From NCBI GenBank assembly GCA_031257255.1, contig JAIROZ010000147.1, positions 1 through 40,308 on the forward strand: a stretch of DNA of 40,308 nucleotides, given 5' to 3'. The position numbers and the translations under genes were made by a program. Below are positions 3,177-20,768 of this stretch, one piece after another (the stretch's first letter is position 1; each line of letters begins with the position of its first letter). The stretch comes from Spirochaetaceae bacterium (GTDB lineage: Bacteria; Spirochaetota; Spirochaetia; Treponematales; Breznakiellaceae). The notes beneath the pieces were generated by a model, which was not told where the DNA came from, ran no database searches, and saw nothing but the letters and a program-made list of their open reading frames with translations.

Positions 3177-3366
3177 ACTAAAATCTCCTTGAATCTAAAA
3201 AATTATATACCCCGTCCAGCGGACAGGTTCTTTTACGTCGGGCAAGACGCGCATAGTGCATAAAGCACGGACGGAAAATACGAGAACTAACGGATGGAAA
3301 AAAGAATGGGGACAAACAAGAGAGCGCGGCAGCCCTCTTGACAAAAAAATCAGAGCCTAAAAAATT

Positions 3367-3454
3367 CTTGGCGCTTGGCGCTTGGCGCTTGGCGCTTGGC
3401 GCTTGGCGCTTGGCGCTTGGCGCTTGGCGCTTGGCGCTTGGCGCTTGGCGCTTG
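3367..3454. repeat. Twelve tandem copies of a 7-bp unit (CTTGGCG)
   Basis: Positions 3371-3454 are exactly twelve perfect copies of GCGCTTG, preceded by CTTG, which extends the periodicity to 88 bases. The next bases (ACGTGA) break the pattern. No gene covers it. It lies about 190 bases upstream of the M48 gene start and about 115 bases upstream of the tRNA promoter. Perfect identity suggests recent expansion by slippage. An earlier stretch (3181-3366) contains nothing I recognise beyond a weak 6-bp hairpin near 3340. Confidence 0.95.
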
Positions 3455-3568
3455 ACGTGAAGTCTGCTCTCATAGCGAATTCATTATAGAGCAACTACAG
3501 AAGATTTGTCAACTAAAATGTCAACAACTATCGCCGAAGCGCGGCAAGTGTGATAATGGACAGGGCTG

Positions 3569-3597
3569 TTGACACTTTTTACCTGCCGTCTTAAACT
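3569..3597 (+). promoter_or_regulatory. Sigma-70-type promoter for the tRNA(CAU) gene
   Basis: A perfect -35 box TTGACA (3569-3574) is followed by 17 bases and then TAAACT (3592-3597). Transcription would start near 3604, about 35 bases before the tRNA. Confidence 0.65.
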
Positions 3598-3639
3598 ATC
3601 GTAAAATATGGCATTGCGTTTTTGAGAAGCGCAATGGAT

Positions 3640-3712
3640 GGTGGCGTAGCTCAGTTGGTGGAGCAAGAGATTCATATCCTCTAGGTCAGTGGTTCGATCC
3701 CACTCGCCACTA
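3640..3712 (+). tRNA. tRNA with CAU anticodon, probably elongator tRNA-Met
   Basis: A 73-base cloverleaf can be drawn. The acceptor arms GGTGGCG and CGCCACT pair with a G-U first pair. The D arm is GCTC/GAGC with an 8-base loop, the anticodon is CAT at 3673-3675, and the T arm is AGTGG-TTCGATC-CCACT. The discriminator is A and CCA is not encoded. The anticodon stem (AGAGA/CCTCT) has an A-C mismatch next to the loop. It lacks the GGG/CCC anticodon stem and the unpaired first acceptor position of initiator tRNA, so it is elongator tRNA-Met or tRNA-Ile2, whose C34 is changed to lysidine. Confidence 0.88.
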
Positions 3713-3717
3713 GGAGA

Positions 3718-3760
3718 GCACTGGAAAATACAAACGAGCATTTTTCAGTGCTTTCTTTCC
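3718..3760 (+). terminator. Rho-independent terminator after the tRNA
   Basis: GCACTGGAAAAT (3718-3729) pairs with ATTTTTCAGTGC (3740-3751) over 12 pairs with one G-U, around a 10-base loop. The tract TTTCTTTCCC follows. It starts 5 bases after the tRNA. Confidence 0.7.
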
Positions 3761-3796
3761 CTTTATTTGCGCAATAGAATGAGCAAATAAAAAGGG
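3759..3796 (+). repeat. Second inverted repeat between the tRNA and rplY
   Basis: CCCTTTATTTGC (3759-3770) pairs with GCAAATAAAAAGGG (3783-3796), with two extra A's. The loop contains TAGAAT (3775-3780), which could be the -10 box of an rplY promoter; the matching -35 position (TTTCTT) is poor. Confidence 0.5.
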
Positions 3797-3863
3797 AAAC
3801 GCTGATGCGGCAAGCCTTTAATTTTTGAGGCTTGCCGAAGCATCGAGTTAATCAGCGTTTCCC
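3794..3863 (+). promoter_or_regulatory. Structured leader of rplY
   Basis: Outer arms GGGAAACGCTGAT (3794-3806) and ATCAGCGTTTCCC (3851-3863) are perfectly complementary over 13 bases. Nested inside, GGCAAGCCT (3809-3817) and AGGCTTGCC pair over 9 bases. GATGC (3804-3808) can also pair with GCATC (3839-3843), so two alternative folds are possible. The element ends 26 bases before the rplY ATG. No long T tract follows, so it looks less like a terminator than a regulatory or autoregulatory leader. L25 leaders are known in some gammaproteobacteria; homology to those is not claimed. Confidence 0.5.
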
Positions 3864-3889
3864 TAGAAAAGTAGTTTAAGGAGCAAACA

Positions 3890-4531
3890 ATGGCTAATGT
3901 TCAATTTGCCGCAAAAAAGAGAGAGGCGTCCGGTTCTGCTGCTGCGGCGCGTTTACGAAGAACGGGGCGTATTCCCGCCGTCATCTACGGGCATAACCCC
4001 GCTGTTTCCATCGACCTGGACGAACGGGAATTTGTAAACGGAATCAAAGGCATAACCGAAAGTACCATCGTTAAAGTAAATTTTGACGGGACAGAAAGGG
4101 ACGCATTTGTCAAAACCACCCAGCGGAATATTACTTCCGGTAAAATTCTTCATGTTGATTTTTATGAAATCGAAACAGGCAAGGTGCTTCGTACTAAGGT
4201 ATCAGTCCGAACAACCGGGAATCCGATAGGGGTACGAGATGGCGGTATCCTCGAAACGCCTCTGCGCGAAATTGAAGTCGAATGCCTGCCGGCTGACCTG
4301 CCGCCCCGTATTGTTGTTGATATAAGCGGATTGCGGGCTAATCAGGCGATTCATGTGGGCGACCTAAGTCTAGGAAGCGGCGTAAAACTTGTCTCGGCAC
4401 CCGACAAAGTAATTGCGCTTGTCAAATTTGCCCGTCAGGATAAGGCGCAGGAAAGCGAAGAAATACCTGCCGAAGGCGCGGCAGCCCCTGCTGACGAAAA
4501 AACGGAAAAAGCCAAAGACGAAAAGAAATAG
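3890..4531 (+). CDS. rplY: 50S ribosomal protein L25 (Ctc/TL5 type)
   Basis: This 213-residue protein is the long form of L25. The N-terminal domain begins FAAKKREASGSAAAARLRRTG and continues GRIPAVIYGH, the 5S-rRNA-binding L25 signature. A second beta domain (TL5/CTC type) covers about residues 100-185, with LETPLREIEVECLPADLP as a marker. The tail is rich in Ala, Glu and Lys, as in other members. GGAG lies 8 bases before the ATG. L25 binds 5S rRNA in the large subunit, and Ctc homologues are often stress induced. A highly folded leader precedes the gene, and the M15 peptidase frame begins inside or just after its 3' end. Confidence 0.93.
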   Translation: MANVQFAAKKREASGSAAAARLRRTGRIPAVIYGHNPAVSIDLDEREFVNGIKGITESTIVKVNFDGTERDAFVKTTQRNITSGKILHVDFYEIETGKVLRTKVSVRTTGNPIGVRDGGILETPLREIEVECLPADLPPRIVVDISGLRANQAIHVGDLSLGSGVKLVSAPDKVIALVKFARQDKAQESEEIPAEGAAAPADEKTEKAKDEKK

Positions 4532-10747: not shown

Positions 10748-11695
10748 ATGAAGAAAAGAATTTTTGCGGCGCTGTTTGCGGCGTTTGCATTTGCGGCGGT
10801 ATTTACCGCAGTTTCGGCATCTTGTAAAAAAGAGCAGCCGAATGAGTATGCGGTGGTTATTAAAACGCTTGCTTCTCCGTTCTGGCGCGGTATTCAGGAA
10901 GGCGTCGAGGGTAAGGCAAAAGAACTCGGCATCAAAGTAGACGTTTACGCGGCGAATTCAGAGGACGACATTGAAGGTCAGGTTCAACTGCTCGAAAATT
11001 GCATTTCCAAGGGCTACAAGGTAATCGGTGTTTCGCCGATTTCGCCGGTAAACCTTAATGCTGTCATCGCGCAGGCAGCCAAAAAAGGCGTCTATGTTAT
11101 TAACATTGACGAAATGGTAAATCTTGAAAACCTTAAATCGCAGGGCGGCGCTGTGCAGGGCTTTTGCGCAACGGACAATGTTGAGGTAGGGCGCATCGGC
11201 GCGGGTTACATCGTTAGCCTGCTTCCCGGCGGCGGACAGGTTGCCATTATCGAAGGCATGGCGGGCAATAAATCCGGCGAAGACCGCAAAAACGGCGCTG
11301 CCGAAGCGTTTAGAAATGCGAGCGGTTTTGAAATTGCCGCAAGCCAAGCGGCGGATTGGGACAGAACCAAGGCTTTTGATGTGGCAAACAGCATTATCAC
11401 GCGCTTCCCGGACATTAAAGGGATTTACTGCTGCAACGACACAATGGCGATGGGCGCTTTGGAAGCGGTAAAACGCTCAGGCAAAACGATTATTGTTGTA
11501 GGCACGGACGGAAACGAAGATGCGGTTCTGTCGGTAAAGGCGGGCGAACTTGCCGCAACGGTCGCTCAGGATACACGGGGCATAGGCGGAATAGGTGTTC
11601 AACTTATGTATGATACATACAAGAACAAACCGAAAATCGACCCCAATGCCGAAGTGCCTTTTGTCGGCGCTAAAGCGCAACTTGTAACAAAGTAA
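10748..11695 (+). CDS. alsB: D-allose ABC transporter substrate-binding protein AlsB
   Basis: This 315-residue protein has a signal sequence with a probable lipobox (SASC near residue 26). It follows the E. coli AlsB pattern closely from EYAVVIKTLASPFWRGIQEG through NVEVGRIGAGYI, QVAIIEGMAGNKSGEDRKNG, ASQAADWDRTKAFDVA, IYCCNDTMAMG and VVGTDGNEDA. This is much nearer to AlsB than to RbsB. A strong GGAGG lies before the ATG. It captures sugar at the cell surface for AlsA/AlsC. The following alsACEK genes make D-allose, or possibly the related D-allulose or ribose, the expected ligand. Confidence 0.9.
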   Translation: MKKRIFAALFAAFAFAAVFTAVSASCKKEQPNEYAVVIKTLASPFWRGIQEGVEGKAKELGIKVDVYAANSEDDIEGQVQLLENCISKGYKVIGVSPISPVNLNAVIAQAAKKGVYVINIDEMVNLENLKSQGGAVQGFCATDNVEVGRIGAGYIVSLLPGGGQVAIIEGMAGNKSGEDRKNGAAEAFRNASGFEIAASQAADWDRTKAFDVANSIITRFPDIKGIYCCNDTMAMGALEAVKRSGKTIIVVGTDGNEDAVLSVKAGELAATVAQDTRGIGGIGVQLMYDTYKNKPKIDPNAEVPFVGAKAQLVTK

Positions 11696-11702
11696 CGCGC
11701 AA

Positions 11703-11738
11703 GCCCGCGCTTGACAGAACCGGCGCGGGCAAATTTTT
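11703..11738 (+). terminator. Intercistronic hairpin between alsB and alsA
   Basis: GCCCGCGC (11703-11710) and GCGCGGGC (11723-11730) form a perfect 8-bp G+C stem, followed by AAATTTTT. It is terminator-like but sits inside the operon, so partial termination or protection of the alsB message is likely; binding-protein genes are often expressed above their transporter genes. Confidence 0.65.
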
Positions 11739-11741
11739 AAT

Positions 11742-13280
11742 ATGGCAAAAATCACACCACTTTTGGAAATGCGGAATATCCGCAAGGAATTCCCCGGAGT
11801 TACCGCGCTCAATAATGTCAATTTTGATGTACTACCCGGCGAAGTACATATCTTGTGCGGAGAGAACGGCGCGGGGAAGTCAACACTGATGAAGATACTG
11901 AGCGGCGCGTATCAGCCGACAGACGGACATCTTGTAATTGACGGCAAAGAATACCGTTCCCTTACCCCCCGTGAATCATCGCAGGCGGGCATCAGCATAA
12001 TATATCAGGAACTTAGCGTTATCAGCGAACTTTCGATAGCGGAAAACATTTTTTTAGGACGCCTTGCGGAGAAAAAATTTCTGGGACTTAATGTTGTTGA
12101 CGGCGCGGCAATGCGAAAGAAAACATCGGAACTTCTTGCCCGCGTAGGACTTAACAAAAAGCCGGACACGCTTGTCGGCAGCCTTTCGATACCGGAAAAA
12201 CAACTCGTGGAAATAGCAAAGGCTGTCGCGTTTGACGCAAAAGTAATTATTATGGACGAGCCCACATCGTCCCTTACAGAAAACGAAGTAGAAAAATTGT
12301 TTCTGATAATCCGCGCGCTTCAAAACGAAGGACGCGGAATCATATATATTTCGCACCGGCTTTCGGAACTAAAAAAAATCGGCAGCCGCGTTTCGGTACT
12401 CAAAGACGGACAATATGTAGGCACAAGGAATATCGCGTCTATTACCGAAGACGAAATTATTACTATGATGGTAGGACGGAGCATAAATGAGCGCTATAAT
12501 TTGGAACCGGTATTAAAGCAGGGCGAGCCTATTTTTGAAGTTTCGCATTTTACCCGCAAAGATAAAAAAGCGTTTGATATTTCATTCAGTTTGTATAAAG
12601 GCGAAGTGCTGGGATTTTCGGGGCTTATCGGCGCGGGCAGGTCGGAATTGATGAACGCAATTTACGGCGCGGAAAAAAAAGAAAGCGGCGTTCTGTATAT
12701 AAATGGAAAAGAAGCGCATATAACGAACACCTATGACGCTGTAAAACAGGGCATAGCGCTCTTAACAGAAAACAGGCGTGAAACAGGCTTCCTCAAAAAT
12801 TTTTCAATAAAAAATAATATATCAATAGCGAGTTATTTAAAAAATTCAAAATGGGGCGGTCTTTACGGGCTTGTAAACAAGGATTACGAAAAAAAAATAT
12901 CAGAGGAGCAAAAGGAAGCGCTTAGTATTAAATGCGCATCTGTCGAGCAAAACATTACAAACCTTTCCGGCGGCAATCAGCAAAAAGTGATACTTGGAAA
13001 ATGGATTGCCAGTATGCCGCGCATCATTATTTTTGACGAACCGACAAAAGGAATAGATGTAGGCACAAAATCGGAAATATATAAACTTCTGCGCCGGCTT
13101 GCGTCCGAAAATATCGGCGTTATTGTTGTATCATCAGAAATGCCGGAACTTCTTGCCGTCTGTGACAGAATCATTGTATTTTCGGGCGGCAGGATTTCTG
13201 GAGAATTCAACGGGCGCGAAGCAACGGAAGAAATGCTGTTAAAGGCGGCAACCGCAAAAACAGGAGAGAACGCGGCATGA
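11742..13280 (+). CDS. alsA: D-allose ABC transporter ATP-binding protein AlsA
   Basis: This 512-residue protein has two nucleotide-binding domains in tandem, typical of monosaccharide transporters. The first has Walker A GENGAGKST, Walker B VIIMDEPTSSL and signature LSIPEKQLVEIAKA. The second has a degenerate Walker A (GLIGAGRSE), a canonical signature LSGGNQQKV and Walker B IIIFDEPTKGIDVG. It powers sugar import through AlsC. No clear Shine-Dalgarno precedes the ATG, which lies directly after the intercistronic hairpin, so translation may be limited or depend on the hairpin. Its 3' end overlaps alsC by 4 bases. Confidence 0.92.
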   Translation: MAKITPLLEMRNIRKEFPGVTALNNVNFDVLPGEVHILCGENGAGKSTLMKILSGAYQPTDGHLVIDGKEYRSLTPRESSQAGISIIYQELSVISELSIAENIFLGRLAEKKFLGLNVVDGAAMRKKTSELLARVGLNKKPDTLVGSLSIPEKQLVEIAKAVAFDAKVIIMDEPTSSLTENEVEKLFLIIRALQNEGRGIIYISHRLSELKKIGSRVSVLKDGQYVGTRNIASITEDEIITMMVGRSINERYNLEPVLKQGEPIFEVSHFTRKDKKAFDISFSLYKGEVLGFSGLIGAGRSELMNAIYGAEKKESGVLYINGKEAHITNTYDAVKQGIALLTENRRETGFLKNFSIKNNISIASYLKNSKWGGLYGLVNKDYEKKISEEQKEALSIKCASVEQNITNLSGGNQQKVILGKWIASMPRIIIFDEPTKGIDVGTKSEIYKLLRRLASENIGVIVVSSEMPELLAVCDRIIVFSGGRISGEFNGREATEEMLLKAATAKTGENAA

Positions 13281-14245
13281 AAAACAATAAATTCAAATTT
13301 CAACAATTTTGGGACAAGTACTCTACGGGAGCTATTGTGGCGCTTATGGTGCTTGTATTCGGCATATTGGAACCCTCATCGTTTCTTAAATTCGACAACC
13401 TGATAAAAATTACCGAGCAAAGTTCTATAACGATTTTGCTTGCCTGCGGTGAATTCTTTGCGATACTGCTTGCCGGAATAGACCTTTCGGTAGGCTCCGT
13501 AATGGCGCTTTCCGGCGTTGTTACCGCAAAATTCCTTGTGGCGGGATTCCATCCGGTTATTGCCGTACTGCTCGGTGTTGTCGTGCTGGGCGCTCTTTTG
13601 GGCGCTCTTAACGGCGCTCTGGTTAATGTTACAGGGCTGCCGCCTTTTATCATTACGCTGGGCACTCAACTTGTATTCCGCGGCGTTACAATGATAGCCT
13701 CGAACAGGCAGGCGGTTGCCGGAGTGCCGGGCGCGTATTCGCGGTTCATTGCCGGGCATACACTGTTTATTATTCCCAATCCGTTTATTATCGCGGCGCT
13801 TGCGGCGGCGGTGCTTACATTTTTTTCGCTAAAAACAAAAGCGGGACGCAACATTTACGCGATAGGCGGCAATGCTCAGGCGGCGTGGTTTGCCGGCATA
13901 AACATAAAAGTACATACCTTGCTTGCGTTTATTATTTCCGGTATATGTTCCTCGCTTGCCGGAATGGTAAATGTTGCGCGGCTTTCCGCCGCCGAACCTA
14001 ACGCCGGCACAGGCTACGAAACCTACGCGATAGCCGCCGTTATTATTGGAGGCACGAGTTTCTTTGGCGGGCAGGGCGTAATACCAAAGGTTGTAGTAGG
14101 CGGCATTATTATAGGCGTTATCAACAACGGATTAAATATGATAGGACTTTCATCATTCTATCAGCAGATAGCAATGGGCTCTATGATAATTATCGCGGTA
14201 ACGCTTGACCGCTTTTTTGGGGCAAGCAGTAAGATGGCAAAATAG
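13277..14245 (+). CDS. alsC: D-allose ABC transporter permease AlsC
   Basis: This 322-residue permease of the RbsC/AraH/AlsC family has about nine to ten membrane segments. Conserved features include LLAGIDLSVGSVMALSGV, the GxG-rich region LGALNGALVNVTGLPPFIITLGT, and AVIIGGTSFFGGQGV near the C-terminal end. The ATG overlaps the alsA stop by 4 bases, so the two proteins are made in step. It forms a homodimeric channel with AlsA. Confidence 0.92.
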   Translation: MKNNKFKFQQFWDKYSTGAIVALMVLVFGILEPSSFLKFDNLIKITEQSSITILLACGEFFAILLAGIDLSVGSVMALSGVVTAKFLVAGFHPVIAVLLGVVVLGALLGALNGALVNVTGLPPFIITLGTQLVFRGVTMIASNRQAVAGVPGAYSRFIAGHTLFIIPNPFIIAALAAAVLTFFSLKTKAGRNIYAIGGNAQAAWFAGINIKVHTLLAFIISGICSSLAGMVNVARLSAAEPNAGTGYETYAIAAVIIGGTSFFGGQGVIPKVVVGGIIIGVINNGLNMIGLSSFYQQIAMGSMIIIAVTLDRFFGASSKMAK

Positions 14246-14253
14246 GAGTATAT

Positions 14254-14931
14254 ATGAAACCTGAATTTTCAATTTCACTTATGTGTATTGATTATCTTAA
14301 CATTAAAGAACAAGTACAAATTTTGAATACAAAGGCAGATTATTATCATATTGATATTATGGACGGGCATTTCTGCAAGAACATTACGCTTTCGCCCGAT
14401 TTTATGCGTTCTGTAAAAAAGATTGCCCGCCTTCCGTTTGATGTTCATCTTATGGTGGAATATCCGAACGATTTTATTGACCTTGTACGGGACGCCGGCG
14501 CGGATATTATTTCGCCTCATGCGGAAACCATCAATACGGATGCTTTTCGTGTAATAAACAAAATTAAATCGCTTGGCGCTAAAGCGGGCGTGGTGCTTAA
14601 TCCGGCAACTCCGCTGGAATATATCAAACATTATGCCGGGCGTCTCGACCTTATTACAATAATGACAGTTGATGTGGGATATGCCGGGCAAAAATTCATT
14701 CCTGAAATGCTTGATAAAATACGGCAGTGCAAAGAATGGAAAGCAAAGTATGGCTGGAATTACAAAATTTCGATAGACGGCTCGTGCAATGCTTCAACTT
14801 TCAAAATGCTTCAGGATGCGGGCGCGGAAATATACATACTCGGCACATCCGGGCTTTTCGCGCTGGACTCCAATTTGAATACGGCATGGGATAAAATGAA
14901 ACAAAATTTTGACGGACTGCATATATGCTGA
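14254..14931 (+). CDS. alsE: D-allulose-6-phosphate 3-epimerase AlsE
   Basis: This 225-residue (beta/alpha)8-barrel protein follows E. coli AlsE closely: ISLMCIDYLNIKEQ, KADYYHIDIMDGHF, PFDVHLMVEYP, TVDVGYAGQKFIPEMLDKI, SIDGSCNASTF and YILGTSGLF. Metal ligands are the His and Asp in HIDIMDGH, the His in DVHLM and the Asp in SIDGSC. The SLMCID start and the insertion pattern separate it from ribulose-phosphate 3-epimerase (Rpe). It converts D-allulose-6-phosphate to D-fructose-6-phosphate. GGAG precedes the ATG. It overlaps alsK by 7 bases. Confidence 0.92.
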   Translation: MKPEFSISLMCIDYLNIKEQVQILNTKADYYHIDIMDGHFCKNITLSPDFMRSVKKIARLPFDVHLMVEYPNDFIDLVRDAGADIISPHAETINTDAFRVINKIKSLGAKAGVVLNPATPLEYIKHYAGRLDLITIMTVDVGYAGQKFIPEMLDKIRQCKEWKAKYGWNYKISIDGSCNASTFKMLQDAGAEIYILGTSGLFALDSNLNTAWDKMKQNFDGLHIC

Positions 14932-15821
14932 CTCTCGGTTTAGACATAGGCGGTACAAATATTCGCAGCGGTTTTGTTGACGGCAATTTGCGCCTTACGG
15001 ATTTTTTAATAACAAAAACAGAAGATGTATTTGCCGCTGCTGCCGGCGGCAACGGCAAAAAACTTACCGCGTATATCGCGGAACTTGCGGCAAAGCATAG
15101 CGCAAAGCCTGATTGTGTTTCGCTGGGTGTTCCTTCAACTGTAGACAAAACAAACAGGCGCATTTGTTCAACGCCTAACATACCGGGTCTTAATGATATT
15201 CCCATTGCCGGTATGGTCGAGGAGGCGCTCAATCTTCCGTGCTATGTACAACGGGATGTATGCTTTTTGCTGCTGCACGATATATATGAGCATAAACTTT
15301 CCGGCGCGGAGGATTTTATCGCGGGCTTTTATGCCGGTACCGGTCTTGGAAACGCCATTGCGTATCAGGGAAAACTCGTTACCGGAAAGAACGGCGCGGC
15401 GGCAGAGTTGGGGCACATTCCGGTTTTGGGTAGAACCGGTATATGCGGCTGCGGGAATTCCGGCTGCATCGAACTGTATGCCTCCGGCAAGCATCTTGCC
15501 GAAATCCGGGACAGACATTATCCCGCCCTTACCATAGACGAAGCGCTGCGCCGCCATTCGCAAGAAAAGCCCATTGTTGATTTTCTGGACGCGCTTGGCG
15601 CGGCAATAGCAACGGAAATAAACATACTCGACCCAGGTCATGTTATTCTTGGCGGCGGTGTTATTTTACAAGACGGCTTTCCCCGCGCCGCGCTCGAAGA
15701 ACGCATACTCGCCCATACGCGCCGCCCATATCCCGCAAACGGTCTGGAATTTATCTACTCGCGGGAATCTCAGGAGAACGGCGTTATAGGCGCGGCGCTC
15801 TTCGCGCAAAGCAAAATGTAG
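14925..15821 (+). CDS. alsK: D-allose kinase AlsK (ROK family)
   Basis: This 298-residue ROK-family kinase has the phosphate-binding motif LGLDIGGTNIRSG at the N-terminus, ICSTPNIPGLNDIP as in AlsK proteins, and GFYAGTGLGNAI. The zinc-binding ROK signature is present (GHIPVLGRTGICGCGNSGCIE, three Cys and one His), and VILGGGVIL completes the pattern. It phosphorylates D-allose at C6. The isomerase that would turn allose-6-phosphate into allulose-6-phosphate (RpiB/AlsI) is not in this operon, so a housekeeping rpiB must serve. It is the last gene of alsBACEK. Confidence 0.85.
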   Translation: MLTLGLDIGGTNIRSGFVDGNLRLTDFLITKTEDVFAAAAGGNGKKLTAYIAELAAKHSAKPDCVSLGVPSTVDKTNRRICSTPNIPGLNDIPIAGMVEEALNLPCYVQRDVCFLLLHDIYEHKLSGAEDFIAGFYAGTGLGNAIAYQGKLVTGKNGAAAELGHIPVLGRTGICGCGNSGCIELYASGKHLAEIRDRHYPALTIDEALRRHSQEKPIVDFLDALGAAIATEINILDPGHVILGGGVILQDGFPRAALEERILAHTRRPYPANGLEFIYSRESQENGVIGAALFAQSKM

Positions 15822-15948: not shown

Positions 15949-17946
15949 TTATGGCAGTTCCAGAATACGACCAATGCTAAGGATTTCTTCGGGGTTCATT
16001 CCATTTTTTGCGGCAATTGCGCCTACCGTAACGCCGTTACGGCGGGCAATGCTGTAAAGTGTATCGCCTTTTTCCACGCGCCATAGGCGTATAAGCGGCA
16101 GCCCGCCGTCTTCCAGCGCTGCGCGGACGGCGGCGGCATTTTCTTTGCGCACCTTTAGTTCGTAGGGTTTGCCGTCCGGCGTGGGCGGCGGCGTTACATT
16201 ATTAAGCAGTTCACGGTTAAAGGTACGAAGGGCATCCTGTTTCAGTCCCGCATACTCCGCAAGCAAAGTTATGTCAACCTGACGCGGTATTGGTATCAAT
16301 TCCCATTCGTAAACTTCGTTTGACCAGTCAATATTGAGTCCAAAACGGCGCGGGTTTGTAACAATGTGGTAAACGGCAAGCAACTTGGGTACATATACCG
16401 ATGTTTCTTTTTTCAGTTTGTCAATTTCGTTCAGTTTCCAGTAATCCTGAATTCCCGTTTGCTTGATGACGCGGGCAATCTCTCCGCCGCCTGAATTGTA
16501 CGCCGCCAGTGCCAGATGCCAGTCGCCGAATTCGCGGTAGTGCGCCTCCAGTTTGGAAAGCGCCGCATGGGTTGACTTGTAAAAATCGCGCCGTTCATCA
16601 ACCCAATCATTTATGCGCATATATGGCTTGATACTGTTCCGCATAAATTGCCACAGCCCGCTTGCGCCGGAACTGGAAAGCGCCTGCGGCTTAAACCCGG
16701 ACTCTATTACAGGCAGATAGAGTAAGTAAGGCGGCATCCCGCGCTTTTCAATTTCGTCTCGTATAAACGCAATGTACGGCTCTCCCGCCTTTAATGTTGA
16801 TTCAATCCACTTTTTTAGAGCAGGCGATGTATAACGCTGAATGTAACTCTGAGTAAGCGGATGTTCAAGTCCGGGCAGCGGATAGGCGGGCAATAAATTG
16901 CTCCCGGCTTCTTCATTCTGGGGCGCTTCGGCGTGTGATTCTGTTTCATGGGTTGAAGAGCGGTCTTCCTGCTTGTAAGCGGCAAGCCTCGGCGGTAATG
17001 CGGCGGCGGCTTTTGAACGCAGAGGGCGTTCAAAGTCAGGCGCGGTATTCTCCACAGCGTTTATTTCCGGCGAAGACAACGCGGCGCTTGCCGGCAGTTC
17101 AGAAGCGCGGACATTAAGGCAAAGCAGTAATGCCGGGAGCACGGTTAGCGCGGCAGGAATAGAGCGCCTGATTTTTGGTTTTTTATTTATTGGCATTTTC
17201 GTGCGAGGCGGCAATGGAGATGTTTCCCAAAATGAGGGACGGGAAAGCGCCGTTTCTATTAGTTCCTCGCCGCTCATTCCGCCTTCCCAAAATTGACGCG
17301 CTCTCTCCGCCAGCCTGAACGCCTGCCTGTAATCATCGCCGTTATCTATAGTAAGGCGCAGTTCGGGATGCCGCCATTTGTCCGGCGCGGCTGGTCGGTA
17401 AAGGCTAAAGATTTCGGGATGACCGTAGATGTAAGGGCAGACATGTTCACGCTCGGCTGCCGCAGACGCCTCGTTACCGGCGCGGAGCAGGGCGCGTACG
17501 GCGATGCTTTCCACGCCCGCTCCGTAGGGGAGTTCCGCGTATGCGGCATAGTCCGCATTGCGGGCGATGGCGGCTTCGTTTATAGCGGAAGCGGCATCAG
17601 CGAAGACAAACGGGTTATCTCCGGTTGCCCGGATGATACGGGCGCAAGGCTCATTGTCAAAGCCTAATGCTCGGCAGGCGGTAACATAGCGGTCAAGCAC
17701 ATCATCTTTTGAACCGGTAACAAGCCTGAAGCCGCATGCGCACGCCAGCGGCGAGAACACCTGTACGCAGTCTTCGGGACAGGCAAGCGCATATTCGTCC
17801 GCTTTTATGGGTGTAAGTGCTTCCATTACACGCTGAATTGCCGGCTTTCCCGCAAGTGGAAGCAGTGCTTTACTGGGCAGCCTGCTAGAATCAAGACGGG
17901 CTTGCAAAACAACCGCCGTTCGTAATTTTTTATCAAACATCAACAT
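15949..17946 (-). CDS. SpsF-type cytidylyltransferase fused to MltD-type lytic transglycosylase with LysM
   Basis: One frame of 665 residues holds two enzymes. Residues about 8-235 are a complete SpsF/CMP-sugar-synthetase-like domain (VVLQARLDSSRLPSKALLPL, DVLDRYVTACRALG, IIRATGDNPFV, LRLTIDNGDDY). A predicted membrane segment follows (IPAALTVLPALLLCLNVRA, about 262-281) after a basic stretch. Then come a low-complexity linker, an SLT domain with catalytic Glu about 415 (LPVIESGF, LWQFMRNS, LALAAYNSGGGE) and one C-terminal LysM (WRVEKGDTLYSIARRNGV). If made whole, the cytidylyltransferase is cytoplasmic and the transglycosylase periplasmic. An in-frame ATG at 17196 would give an MltD with a normal signal peptide, but no ribosome site precedes it. 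The start at 17946 (or ATG 17940) overlaps the upstream gene; the longer frame to 18003 is unlikely. Confidence 0.85.
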   Translation of the reverse strand: MLMFDKKLRTAVVLQARLDSSRLPSKALLPLAGKPAIQRVMEALTPIKADEYALACPEDCVQVFSPLACACGFRLVTGSKDDVLDRYVTACRALGFDNEPCARIIRATGDNPFVFADAASAINEAAIARNADYAAYAELPYGAGVESIAVRALLRAGNEASAAAEREHVCPYIYGHPEIFSLYRPAAPDKWRHPELRLTIDNGDDYRQAFRLAERARQFWEGGMSGEELIETALSRPSFWETSPLPPRTKMPINKKPKIRRSIPAALTVLPALLLCLNVRASELPASAALSSPEINAVENTAPDFERPLRSKAAAALPPRLAAYKQEDRSSTHETESHAEAPQNEEAGSNLLPAYPLPGLEHPLTQSYIQRYTSPALKKWIESTLKAGEPYIAFIRDEIEKRGMPPYLLYLPVIESGFKPQALSSSGASGLWQFMRNSIKPYMRINDWVDERRDFYKSTHAALSKLEAHYREFGDWHLALAAYNSGGGEIARVIKQTGIQDYWKLNEIDKLKKETSVYVPKLLAVYHIVTNPRRFGLNIDWSNEVYEWELIPIPRQVDITLLAEYAGLKQDALRTFNRELLNNVTPPPTPDGKPYELKVRKENAAAVRAALEDGGLPLIRLWRVEKGDTLYSIARRNGVTVGAIAAKNGMNPEEILSIGRILELP

Positions 17947-19153
17947 CACTCTGTATAATTTTACCAAGCCAGTTTCTAAATAATGTACGCGAATCTGTGA
18001 CAAAACGGCTGGAGTTGTCTTTTACCCAATGGCGGATTCCCGAAAAAAGCCGCCACGAAGTTTTTATCCCCATGCCGCTTTTTAACGCAAAAGGGAAAAA
18101 ATAAACAAGAGGCAGGACACCGCCGTCTGTAGATTCTGATACAATGCCTTCGGAGGCGGCGGCTATTGTCTCTAATGTGATTTTTTTTTCGCTTCTGCGG
18201 AATACAGGGGCTAAATTCTTTAAGAAGAAGCGGCGGTAAGATGCGTCTGCTGTTGTATCTTCGCGGTGAATCTGACCTTCCACGCTAAGGCGGAGCGGTT
18301 TATCGCAGCGGATTTCCTCGCCCCAAAGCCATGCGCGGAGCCCTAAGTCGAGGTATTGCCAGTATGGGCTGTCCAGCGCATCGTCAAAGCCGCCGAGCCT
18401 GATAAACCGGGCGCGGTCATAAACGCCGGCGGCATCAAAAGGATAGAGGGTTGGAAATTCATCGTATTCAGGCAAAATTGGAACACACTCAAATGTATTT
18501 TTACCCCGAAAAAAGCCGGTTTTTCCGGCGGATTTTTTTGACGAGGCATTAGTGGAAAAAAACGAGGTTTTTTTAGAAGCAAAGTCTGCCGCCGCTACCG
18601 GAACATTCATTGTGGGAACAGTTTCTAACGCCTGATTCTGCATGACCGGTACAGTGCAAAGTCGCTTATAAGCGGAAGAAAAAATGTCCGGCGCTGCCGC
18701 CTGCGACACCGGCATCTCATTTTGAGGCGCCGCATTTGCCGGCGGTTTAAGTCCGATTTTTAGGCGCTCGTGGATACGCTCGGCTTTGATACCGGAAATA
18801 CGCTGGTCATCCCAGAGCACAAAGAAGAGAGGACTTTTTACTTCGCTTGCGGCGGCGTTTATCTTTGCGCCAACGCTAACTTTTTCGTCTATCAGCAAAA
18901 ACCGCGCCGCGCCGGAAAGCGCGTACAATTCCTCAACGCCGCCCGCCACGGCACCGCCGCCTGTGGAATTTTCTACAGATACAATAAGGTCAAAACCGCA
19001 TTTTTCAAGTTCCTCAAAAAATGCCCGCCGTCCCATGCGTCCGCGCCTTGGCAGTACAACTGCGGACACACCAGAAAGATTTTTGTCCGCTTCCGCGCCC
19101 ACTACTGTATAAGGCGGCAGCCGTCCGCTAAAAGTTGAAGGTATAGTATTCAT
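17933..19153 (-). CDS. Glycosyltransferase-like protein of the spiro-SPASM cluster
   Basis: The protein has 406 residues and no firm family. Two parts look like a GT-A fold. SVGAKINAAASEVKSPLFFVLWDDQRI resembles the 'naG...A.GdyilfLDDD' nucleotide-sugar region, and LGGFDDAL...LDLGLRAWLWGEEI resembles the C-terminal acceptor part of GT2 enzymes. Between them is a long low-complexity insert (about residues 135-235) rich in Ala, Ser and Lys that looks disordered. A short N-terminal part contains VVLPRRGRMGRRAFFEELEKCG. It overlaps the radical SAM gene by 26 bases upstream and the SpsF-MltD gene by about 14 bases downstream, so all three are translationally coupled. The activity is not established from sequence. 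Confidence 0.65.
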   Translation of the reverse strand: MNTIPSTFSGRLPPYTVVGAEADKNLSGVSAVVLPRRGRMGRRAFFEELEKCGFDLIVSVENSTGGGAVAGGVEELYALSGAARFLLIDEKVSVGAKINAAASEVKSPLFFVLWDDQRISGIKAERIHERLKIGLKPPANAAPQNEMPVSQAAAPDIFSSAYKRLCTVPVMQNQALETVPTMNVPVAAADFASKKTSFFSTNASSKKSAGKTGFFRGKNTFECVPILPEYDEFPTLYPFDAAGVYDRARFIRLGGFDDALDSPYWQYLDLGLRAWLWGEEIRCDKPLRLSVEGQIHREDTTADASYRRFFLKNLAPVFRRSEKKITLETIAAASEGIVSESTDGGVLPLVYFFPFALKSGMGIKTSWRLFSGIRHWVKDNSSRFVTDSRTLFRNWLGKIIQSDVDV

Positions 19154-20768
19154 CGCATTTTGCGCAAAGGTTATCCCATTGTTTTCCGTTTTGTATTATA
19201 TCACAATGCAGACGGTACAATTCTTCCCCGCGCTTCCAAATATCCTCAAGGGTTTCTGTGTAAGCATTTCCAAGCAGCGCAAATTCGCCCTTACCTTGAA
19301 GAGCGCATATATCTTCTTTGCATACAGGAACGCTGCCGTCAAGCAGAATATACATATCACGCATAATATGCCAGCACGGCTCGCGTATTACAGGCGATAT
19401 ATCGGCAGAAAGCAAATCCGGCAGTCTGCCGCAGAAACTATCATATTTTTGAATAATGATATTGTTGGTTTTTGTTTTCCAGTGTTTGTAAAATTTTTCA
19501 ATATCGTCTTCGTTGCCTTTTGCGCGTATAGCCTGAACATATACATTGCCAGGAAATAACGAAAACAATTTTTCGGCGCATAAAAGCGCCTCGTCAAAAT
19601 CTTTCGCGCAGCCGCTGCCGTCTTTATGGAGAGCGGCATAGTTTTCTGCATTGTTTGTATCAAGAGAAACTATCCATGTAAGCGGCGCTGTTCCAAATGA
19701 GCGCTTTTGAGGGAGTTTTACCGCCATTCCGGCTAGTTTTTCGAGTGTTTCGTCATTCCAGCGGAGCCCCGCCGTTTCTATTACAAGAGACAATTCTTCA
19801 TGCTTTAATACTGAATCAGCAATTTCCACAATCTGGGGGTGAAGCGCCGCCTCGCCCCAAAGAGAAATATCAATTACGGCGCTGCCGGTAAATTTAACTA
19901 TACTATTCATTAGTGTATCGAATTTTGATACACTAATGAATCCGCCTTCTGTATCATAATTTGATACATCTTTGAATTCATTTTGCGCGCCAGAATTTTT
20001 ATACAGAGGATACGGACAGTAGGCGCATTTTACCGGACATACATTGGAAATTTGGATATTAAAAAAAGCGGGCAGAGTCCGCAGGGTTTCTTTTTTATGC
20101 TGAATTATATTTTCCGCGTCATTGTAATTCCTATATCCCGCCTGAATAAAACGCCGCAGCAATAAGAAATTCCGTTTGCTATCCGCGCAGAGCATAATAC
20201 GGCTGGAGCGTAAATCCACAGCGGATATTTCGGTTTCTATATCAAACGAATTGATGTCTTTTTGCAGTACATTAAAAAGTGTATCACGCTCAACATAATC
20301 TTCCGCATCGCCGTTAAGGGCGCAAAGAACGCCGAGCGTTCCGGGCGAGAAAATTTCCGGCGCAAGCCCATAGGGGAAGCCGTCCGCGTAAGTATATTCG
20401 GCTGGGTATGCTTCGTGGCGCTTTTGCATGGCGGCGGCAAGTTCAACATCAGCAAAAGGGCAGTCGCCCCAAATAAAGTACGAAAAATCAAAGCCCTCGC
20501 TTGCGCGGGAAAGCCCTGCCAGAAAATTTTTTGTATTCCAAGCCGGCGCGGAAATAATTTGAACGGGCATTTTTATATTTTTGATTTCTGATTTGAAATT
20601 TTGCTGCGCGGATTTATCCGCATCTGATACGAACAGCGCGATATTTGTTGCATAGGGAAACAACGCGGCTTTTTCGAGGGTCATGCGGAAGGCGCTTTTT
20701 CCCTCTAAAAGCGGCTCAAATGCCTCGCGGGTAATATTACCCGCAAAAACGAGGACAACGGCTTTCAT
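19128..20768 (-). CDS. Spiro-SPASM radical SAM protein
   Basis: The protein has 546 residues. The 4Fe-4S cluster motif CxxxCxxC is C244, C248, C251 (SNVCPVKCAYCPYPLY). The C-terminal SPASM-like region has CWHIMRDMYILLDGSVPVCKED and a final LCAKCDEYY for auxiliary clusters. The first 230 residues resemble a nucleotidyltransferase (SpsF-like) fold, with MKAVVLVFAGNITREAFEPLLEGKSA and FIWGDCPFADVEL, though catalytic residues are not obvious. This matches the spirochaete-restricted spiro-SPASM family, whose substrate is unknown. It contains a pair of 17-bp palindromes about residues 270-290. No Shine-Dalgarno is seen before the ATG. Confidence 0.85.
   Translation of the reverse strand: MKAVVLVFAGNITREAFEPLLEGKSAFRMTLEKAALFPYATNIALFVSDADKSAQQNFKSEIKNIKMPVQIISAPAWNTKNFLAGLSRASEGFDFSYFIWGDCPFADVELAAAMQKRHEAYPAEYTYADGFPYGLAPEIFSPGTLGVLCALNGDAEDYVERDTLFNVLQKDINSFDIETEISAVDLRSSRIMLCADSKRNFLLLRRFIQAGYRNYNDAENIIQHKKETLRTLPAFFNIQISNVCPVKCAYCPYPLYKNSGAQNEFKDVSNYDTEGGFISVSKFDTLMNSIVKFTGSAVIDISLWGEAALHPQIVEIADSVLKHEELSLVIETAGLRWNDETLEKLAGMAVKLPQKRSFGTAPLTWIVSLDTNNAENYAALHKDGSGCAKDFDEALLCAEKLFSLFPGNVYVQAIRAKGNEDDIEKFYKHWKTKTNNIIIQKYDSFCGRLPDLLSADISPVIREPCWHIMRDMYILLDGSVPVCKEDICALQGKGEFALLGNAYTETLEDIWKRGEELYRLHCDIIQNGKQWDNLCAKCDEYYTFNF
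19906..19977. repeat. Palindrome pair inside the radical SAM gene
   Basis: TTCATTAGTGTATC (19906-19919) and GATACACTAATGAA (19927-19940) are perfect 14-bp arms around a 7-base loop. About 10 bases further lies a second, smaller palindrome, GTATCATAATTTGATAC. Read on the minus strand the two cores are GTATCAAATTATGATAC and GTATCAAAATTCGATAC, near-copies of each other. They encode in-frame residues just after the iron-sulphur motif. Confidence 0.85.

Follow-up and report, generated by a model that had tools for sequence, protein, structure and literature searches.

The window, the whole 40,308-nucleotide stretch analysed here, comes from a Spirochaetaceae bacterium (genome G000). It carries on its minus strand one uninterrupted open reading frame of 663 amino acids plus stop (15949..17940), which runs without internal stop from an ATG at 17940 to a TAA at 15949-15951. 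The original prediction had named no strand; on the plus strand, 15949-17946 is interrupted by stops throughout. Upstream, the frame stays open to a TTG at 18003 and includes an alternative in-frame start, ATG 17946; the ATG at 17940 was preferred because it yields MFDKKLRTAVVLQARLDS, close to METAVILQARLDS of G001, the closest genome. Pfam matches to CTP_transf_3 (E 3e-25), SLT (E 5e-25) and LysM (E 1e-10) were all far over the gathering cut-offs, and the encoded parts follow in the order CTP_transf_3, hydrophobic segment, MltD-type SLT domain, one LysM. The original prediction, that a single open frame joins an SpsF-type cytidylyltransferase to SLT and LysM domains, is thereby borne out, and a chance ORF is rejected by the Pfam matches together with the fold matches given below. 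AlphaFold2, supplied with 70 aligned sequences (the window protein with separate SpsF and MltD rows), predicted two confident domains, with pLDDT below 50 for residues 247-349. By sequence and by model, both halves are intact and are joined by about 100 residues predicted to be disordered.

The cytidylyltransferase half (17206..17940, minus strand, residues 1-245) was delimited by the Pfam match, by its 68% identity to SpsF of G001, by PDB entry 6oew and by the AlphaFold2 model, in which pLDDT is mostly above 90 up to about residue 230. This entry, from Leptospira borgpetersenii, was matched in the PDB by both sequence and fold (TM 0.83-0.85, normalised to the target). The nucleotidyltransferase fold and the conserved motifs of SpsF/KdsB-like enzymes (PF02348) are present, and kdsB models matched weakly, under their cut-off.

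In the second half, the SLT (lytic transglycosylase) domain lies at 16432..16749 on the minus strand (residues 398-503; PF01464). It carries the conserved motifs VIESGF (residue 411) and GASGLWQFM (residue 425), and the catalytic glutamate of this GH23 domain is found in the ES motif. Sequence and fold both matched Pseudomonas aeruginosa MltD (8rhe/8rhf), with a TM score of 0.81 normalised to the target. A single C-terminal LysM domain (15952..16080, minus strand, residues 621-663; PF01476) ends the protein; both congeners have two copies, and N635 of the window replaces a Tyr that is invariant among relatives. The NCBIfam MltD equivalog NF008050 scored 167 bits, under its cut-off of 508, but the separate MltD of G001 also scored 167, so the shortfall reflects distance from proteobacterial MltD and not the fusion. 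No export signal stands at the N-terminus of the fused protein; a signal-peptide-like segment is found internally instead, at residues 249-279.

This segment (17104..17196, minus strand; MPINKKPKIRRSIPAALTVLPALLLCLNVRA, then S280) begins at an in-frame ATG at 17196, which encodes M249 and whose existence had been correctly noted. It had been taken to contain a membrane helix serving as an anchor. By hydropathy, however, strong hydrophobicity is confined in the fused protein to a single stretch of 15 residues (261-275), which holds two prolines, is preceded by a K/R-rich segment and is followed by NVRA-S, so that it resembles a cleavable Sec signal peptide. The positive n-region, short hydrophobic core and small-x-small-like end (V-R-A) favour such a peptide over a transmembrane anchor. 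Standalone MltD proteins of relatives have the same kind of segment at their N-termini. Residues 249-279 are thus most likely, from their sequence features, mltD's own Sec signal peptide rather than a dedicated membrane anchor. The candidate cleavage site, after A279, was read by eye. It is followed by a low-complexity linker (16891..17103, minus strand, residues 280-350), predicted by AlphaFold2 to be disordered.

Residues invariant in the respective families were kept at 44/44 positions in the cytidylyltransferase half and at 54/55 in the MltD half; a decaying pseudogene is therefore rejected. The source genome is a draft (70.7% complete, 210 contigs), in which the sole match to the fused protein is the fusion itself. 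No further copy of either half was thus seen, although the draft may lack a second spsF or mltD. Of 45 family genomes of good quality, 43 have spsF, and mltD occurs in nearly all relatives searched; given this and the single copies, both functions are probably still supplied by the fused frame.

Two further genomes of the genus (g1), G001 and G002, were compared. In G001, spsF (3349-4113) ends in PTAV-TGA, and mltD follows directly in a different frame, from 4110, its ATG overlapping the spsF stop by four bases (ATGA). In G002, each of the two genes has its own surroundings, on a contig that does not carry the other. Gene trees group the window halves with those of G001 (support 99/96 for mltD, 95/99 for spsF). 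In 59 relatives searched, the two parts matched at separate places, except in the window genome and G001. Separate genes in close relatives had been named as grounds for refuting the fusion; they do exist in G001 and G002, but show it to be lineage-specific rather than false.

The prediction had also suggested a search for SpsF-MltD as one protein elsewhere. No other such fusion was found among the matches listed from 200 family genomes, where the listed spsF frames did not exceed about 400 aa except in the window and in G167; the long frame of the latter was rejected as a fusion, since a TGA separates spsF from the downstream gene. Among 393 phylum genomes, in a search that retained strong matches (E up to 1e-88) only, the window alone gave a match spanning both halves. 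A conserved bifunctional enzyme, or Rosetta-stone fusion, is rejected by the lack of a second case in these two sets, and the literature search returned nothing on an spsF-mltD fusion. In five genomes from other families of the order (G036, G039, G044, G050 and G056), the open frames that contain the spsF matches measure about 520-555 aa and might represent another type of spsF fusion.

Upstream of the fused gene, and overlapping its start, ends a gene for a 406-aa protein of no known family (17933..19153, minus strand), conserved with spsF in the family. It is preceded by a gene for a spiro-SPASM radical SAM protein (TIGR04321; 19128..20768, minus strand; 571 bits, NCBIfam cut-off 250), the first gene of the conserved spsF operon; the literature search found nothing on spiro-SPASM. 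Together with spsF, these genes (17933-20768) form an overlapping set whose order is conserved in the family. The same succession was seen in five other genomes: a spiro-SPASM gene, then one whose product has no assigned family, then spsF. In several of them the gene after spsF encodes about 620-650 aa, with a PseG-like front (a weak match) and a methyltransferase domain. On the other side of the fused gene, a plus-strand run (10748-15821) encodes a sugar-binding protein, an ABC ATPase, a permease, a ribulose-phosphate-3-epimerase-family protein and a ROK kinase, and resembles an allose-type uptake operon; Pfam was run on the last two proteins only.

In all three genomes of the genus the methyltransferase gene is on another contig, and mltD takes its place behind spsF in G000 and G001, which pair as sisters in the trees of both genes. 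A plausible course of events would start with the departure of the usual downstream gene within the genus, mltD then taking the vacated place and the two frames finally merging in the lineage of the window. The stop of spsF in the family is commonly ATGA, or a TGA overlapping the next start, and both alternative frames stop within 25 bases after ATG 17196, so that an indel or the loss of a stop in the short tail would be enough to fuse the genes. The ATGA coupling of G001 is lost in the window, and a DNA alignment of the two showed a tail too diverged to name the fusing mutation. The N-region of G001 MltD (APRKTWGKKP) resembles PPRTKMPINKKP of the window, a likeness that hints weakly at an old mltD start upstream of 17196.

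Since the adjacency of the genes is independently confirmed in G001 and the invariant residues are kept, the locus is best read as a genuine in-frame fusion. We give slightly better than even odds (about 0.5) to its full form: a real, lineage-specific fusion of adjacent, independently functional genes, giving one precursor with an internal signal peptide that is probably cleaved to yield two enzymes. Judged from the sequences compared, the fusion looks recent and accidental. A single 663-aa precursor would be translated from ATG 17940. Its cytidylyltransferase part, at the N-terminus, would fold in the cytoplasm, and what was once the signal peptide of mltD, internal in the fusion and oriented N-in by the K/R residues before it, would pass the C-terminal part on to Sec. 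The chain would probably be cut after VRA279 by signal peptidase I, which would free MltD into the periplasm, while the cytidylyltransferase would keep a short tail in the membrane. The outcome would be two ordinary enzymes, at a 1:1 ratio, from one frame.

Cleavage after A279 is probable rather than certain. Signal peptidase cleavage drops in yeast when the region preceding the signal is longer (PMC8277137), and a cut following a folded domain of 245 residues cannot be taken for granted. That observation, along with the K/R-rich flank favouring an N-in topology, lends something to a type II membrane protein that retains its signal anchor uncleaved, with the cytidylyltransferase inside and the peptidoglycan lytic enzyme outside. 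We regard this as unlikely, given the short core of about 15 residues with its two prolines and A-x-A-like end, all as in signal peptides, and given that relatives have ordinary signal peptides at the same place and keep the two activities apart. Further against it, we know of no functional link between cytidylyltransferase and lytic transglycosylase activities. For the two-compartment protein originally proposed, the in-frame fusion is thus best taken as genuine, but it is not conserved, and the uncleaved form is a possible rather than the most probable outcome. A fused enzyme that stays intact and works on either side of the membrane is conceivable, though nothing positive speaks for it; that it would be stable and tethered through the membrane, physically coupling glycan-precursor activation to periplasmic wall cutting, appears improbable.

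Two products from the locus, an MltD precursor started at ATG 17196 being made in addition to the full frame or in its place, would be a little less probable still than the type II protein as such. M249 stands exactly at the head of the complete signal peptide, as such a start would have it. A Shine-Dalgarno motif was looked for upstream of 17196 and none was found; this does not exclude internal initiation, because many ORFs of the window also have none (about 13 of 31 long ORFs, by a crude test). By similarly crude statistics, the motif was seen at 59 of 94 mltD starts of relatives. Termination-reinitiation requires a stop that overlaps the start or lies very close to it (PMC10666635), and the fused frame has no in-frame stop from which to re-initiate. 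Lacking both the motif and a nearby stop, ATG 17196 makes one long precursor likelier than two products.

An error of sequence or assembly, or a mixture of strains, at the junction in this MAG contig, with the genome itself having two overlapping genes as in G001, is a slim prospect: a single-base change within some 40 bases (17197-17236) would part the genes, the other two frames both stop just after ATG 17196 as an overlap would predict, and the fusion is seen in one genome only, but the spsF-mltD adjacency is backed by an independent genome, the junction has no long homopolymer (the longest run in 17197-17240 being TTTT), and the window tail differs from that of G001 by far more than one base.

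Read as one precursor that probably gives two enzymes, the locus is a gene fusion between functionally unrelated neighbours, caught soon after an operon rearrangement and with the unfused state kept in the closest relative. It shows a route from an ATGA gene overlap to a fusion. With a signal peptide lying inside it, one precursor could be made and then split, and in this way the fusion could be tolerable to the cell. It also cautions against reading function into a domain combination known from one genome.

With known SpsF/KdsB-like cytidylyltransferases (PF02348; 6oew) the first half has fold and conserved motifs in common, but its domain is followed by no stop codon and runs into MltD. Like P. 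aeruginosa MltD (8rhe/8rhf; NF008050), the second half has the SLT fold and motifs, a C-terminal LysM and a signal peptide heading the part, whereas in the window this part is preceded by a cytidylyltransferase and has one LysM only. The nearest locus, on contig JAIRPM010000035.1 of G001 (L031; Spirochaetaceae MAG Cf509_bin4), has the same two genes in the same order and on the same strand (identity 68% for spsF, about 60-66% for mltD); it differs in keeping them separate, in the two LysM domains of its mltD, and in having neither the spiro-SPASM gene nor the 406-aa gene upstream. Fusion at the spsF stop codon is not unprecedented, as treponemes of another family of the same order have an in-frame fusion of spsF with the gene that usually lies downstream of it (L149:828-3413, 862 aa; L150:1002-3644, 881 aa). 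These are an independent case of spsF joined to its downstream neighbour across the boundary that is fused in the window, but there the partner is the PseG-like/methyltransferase protein that usually follows spsF, and not an exported wall enzyme.
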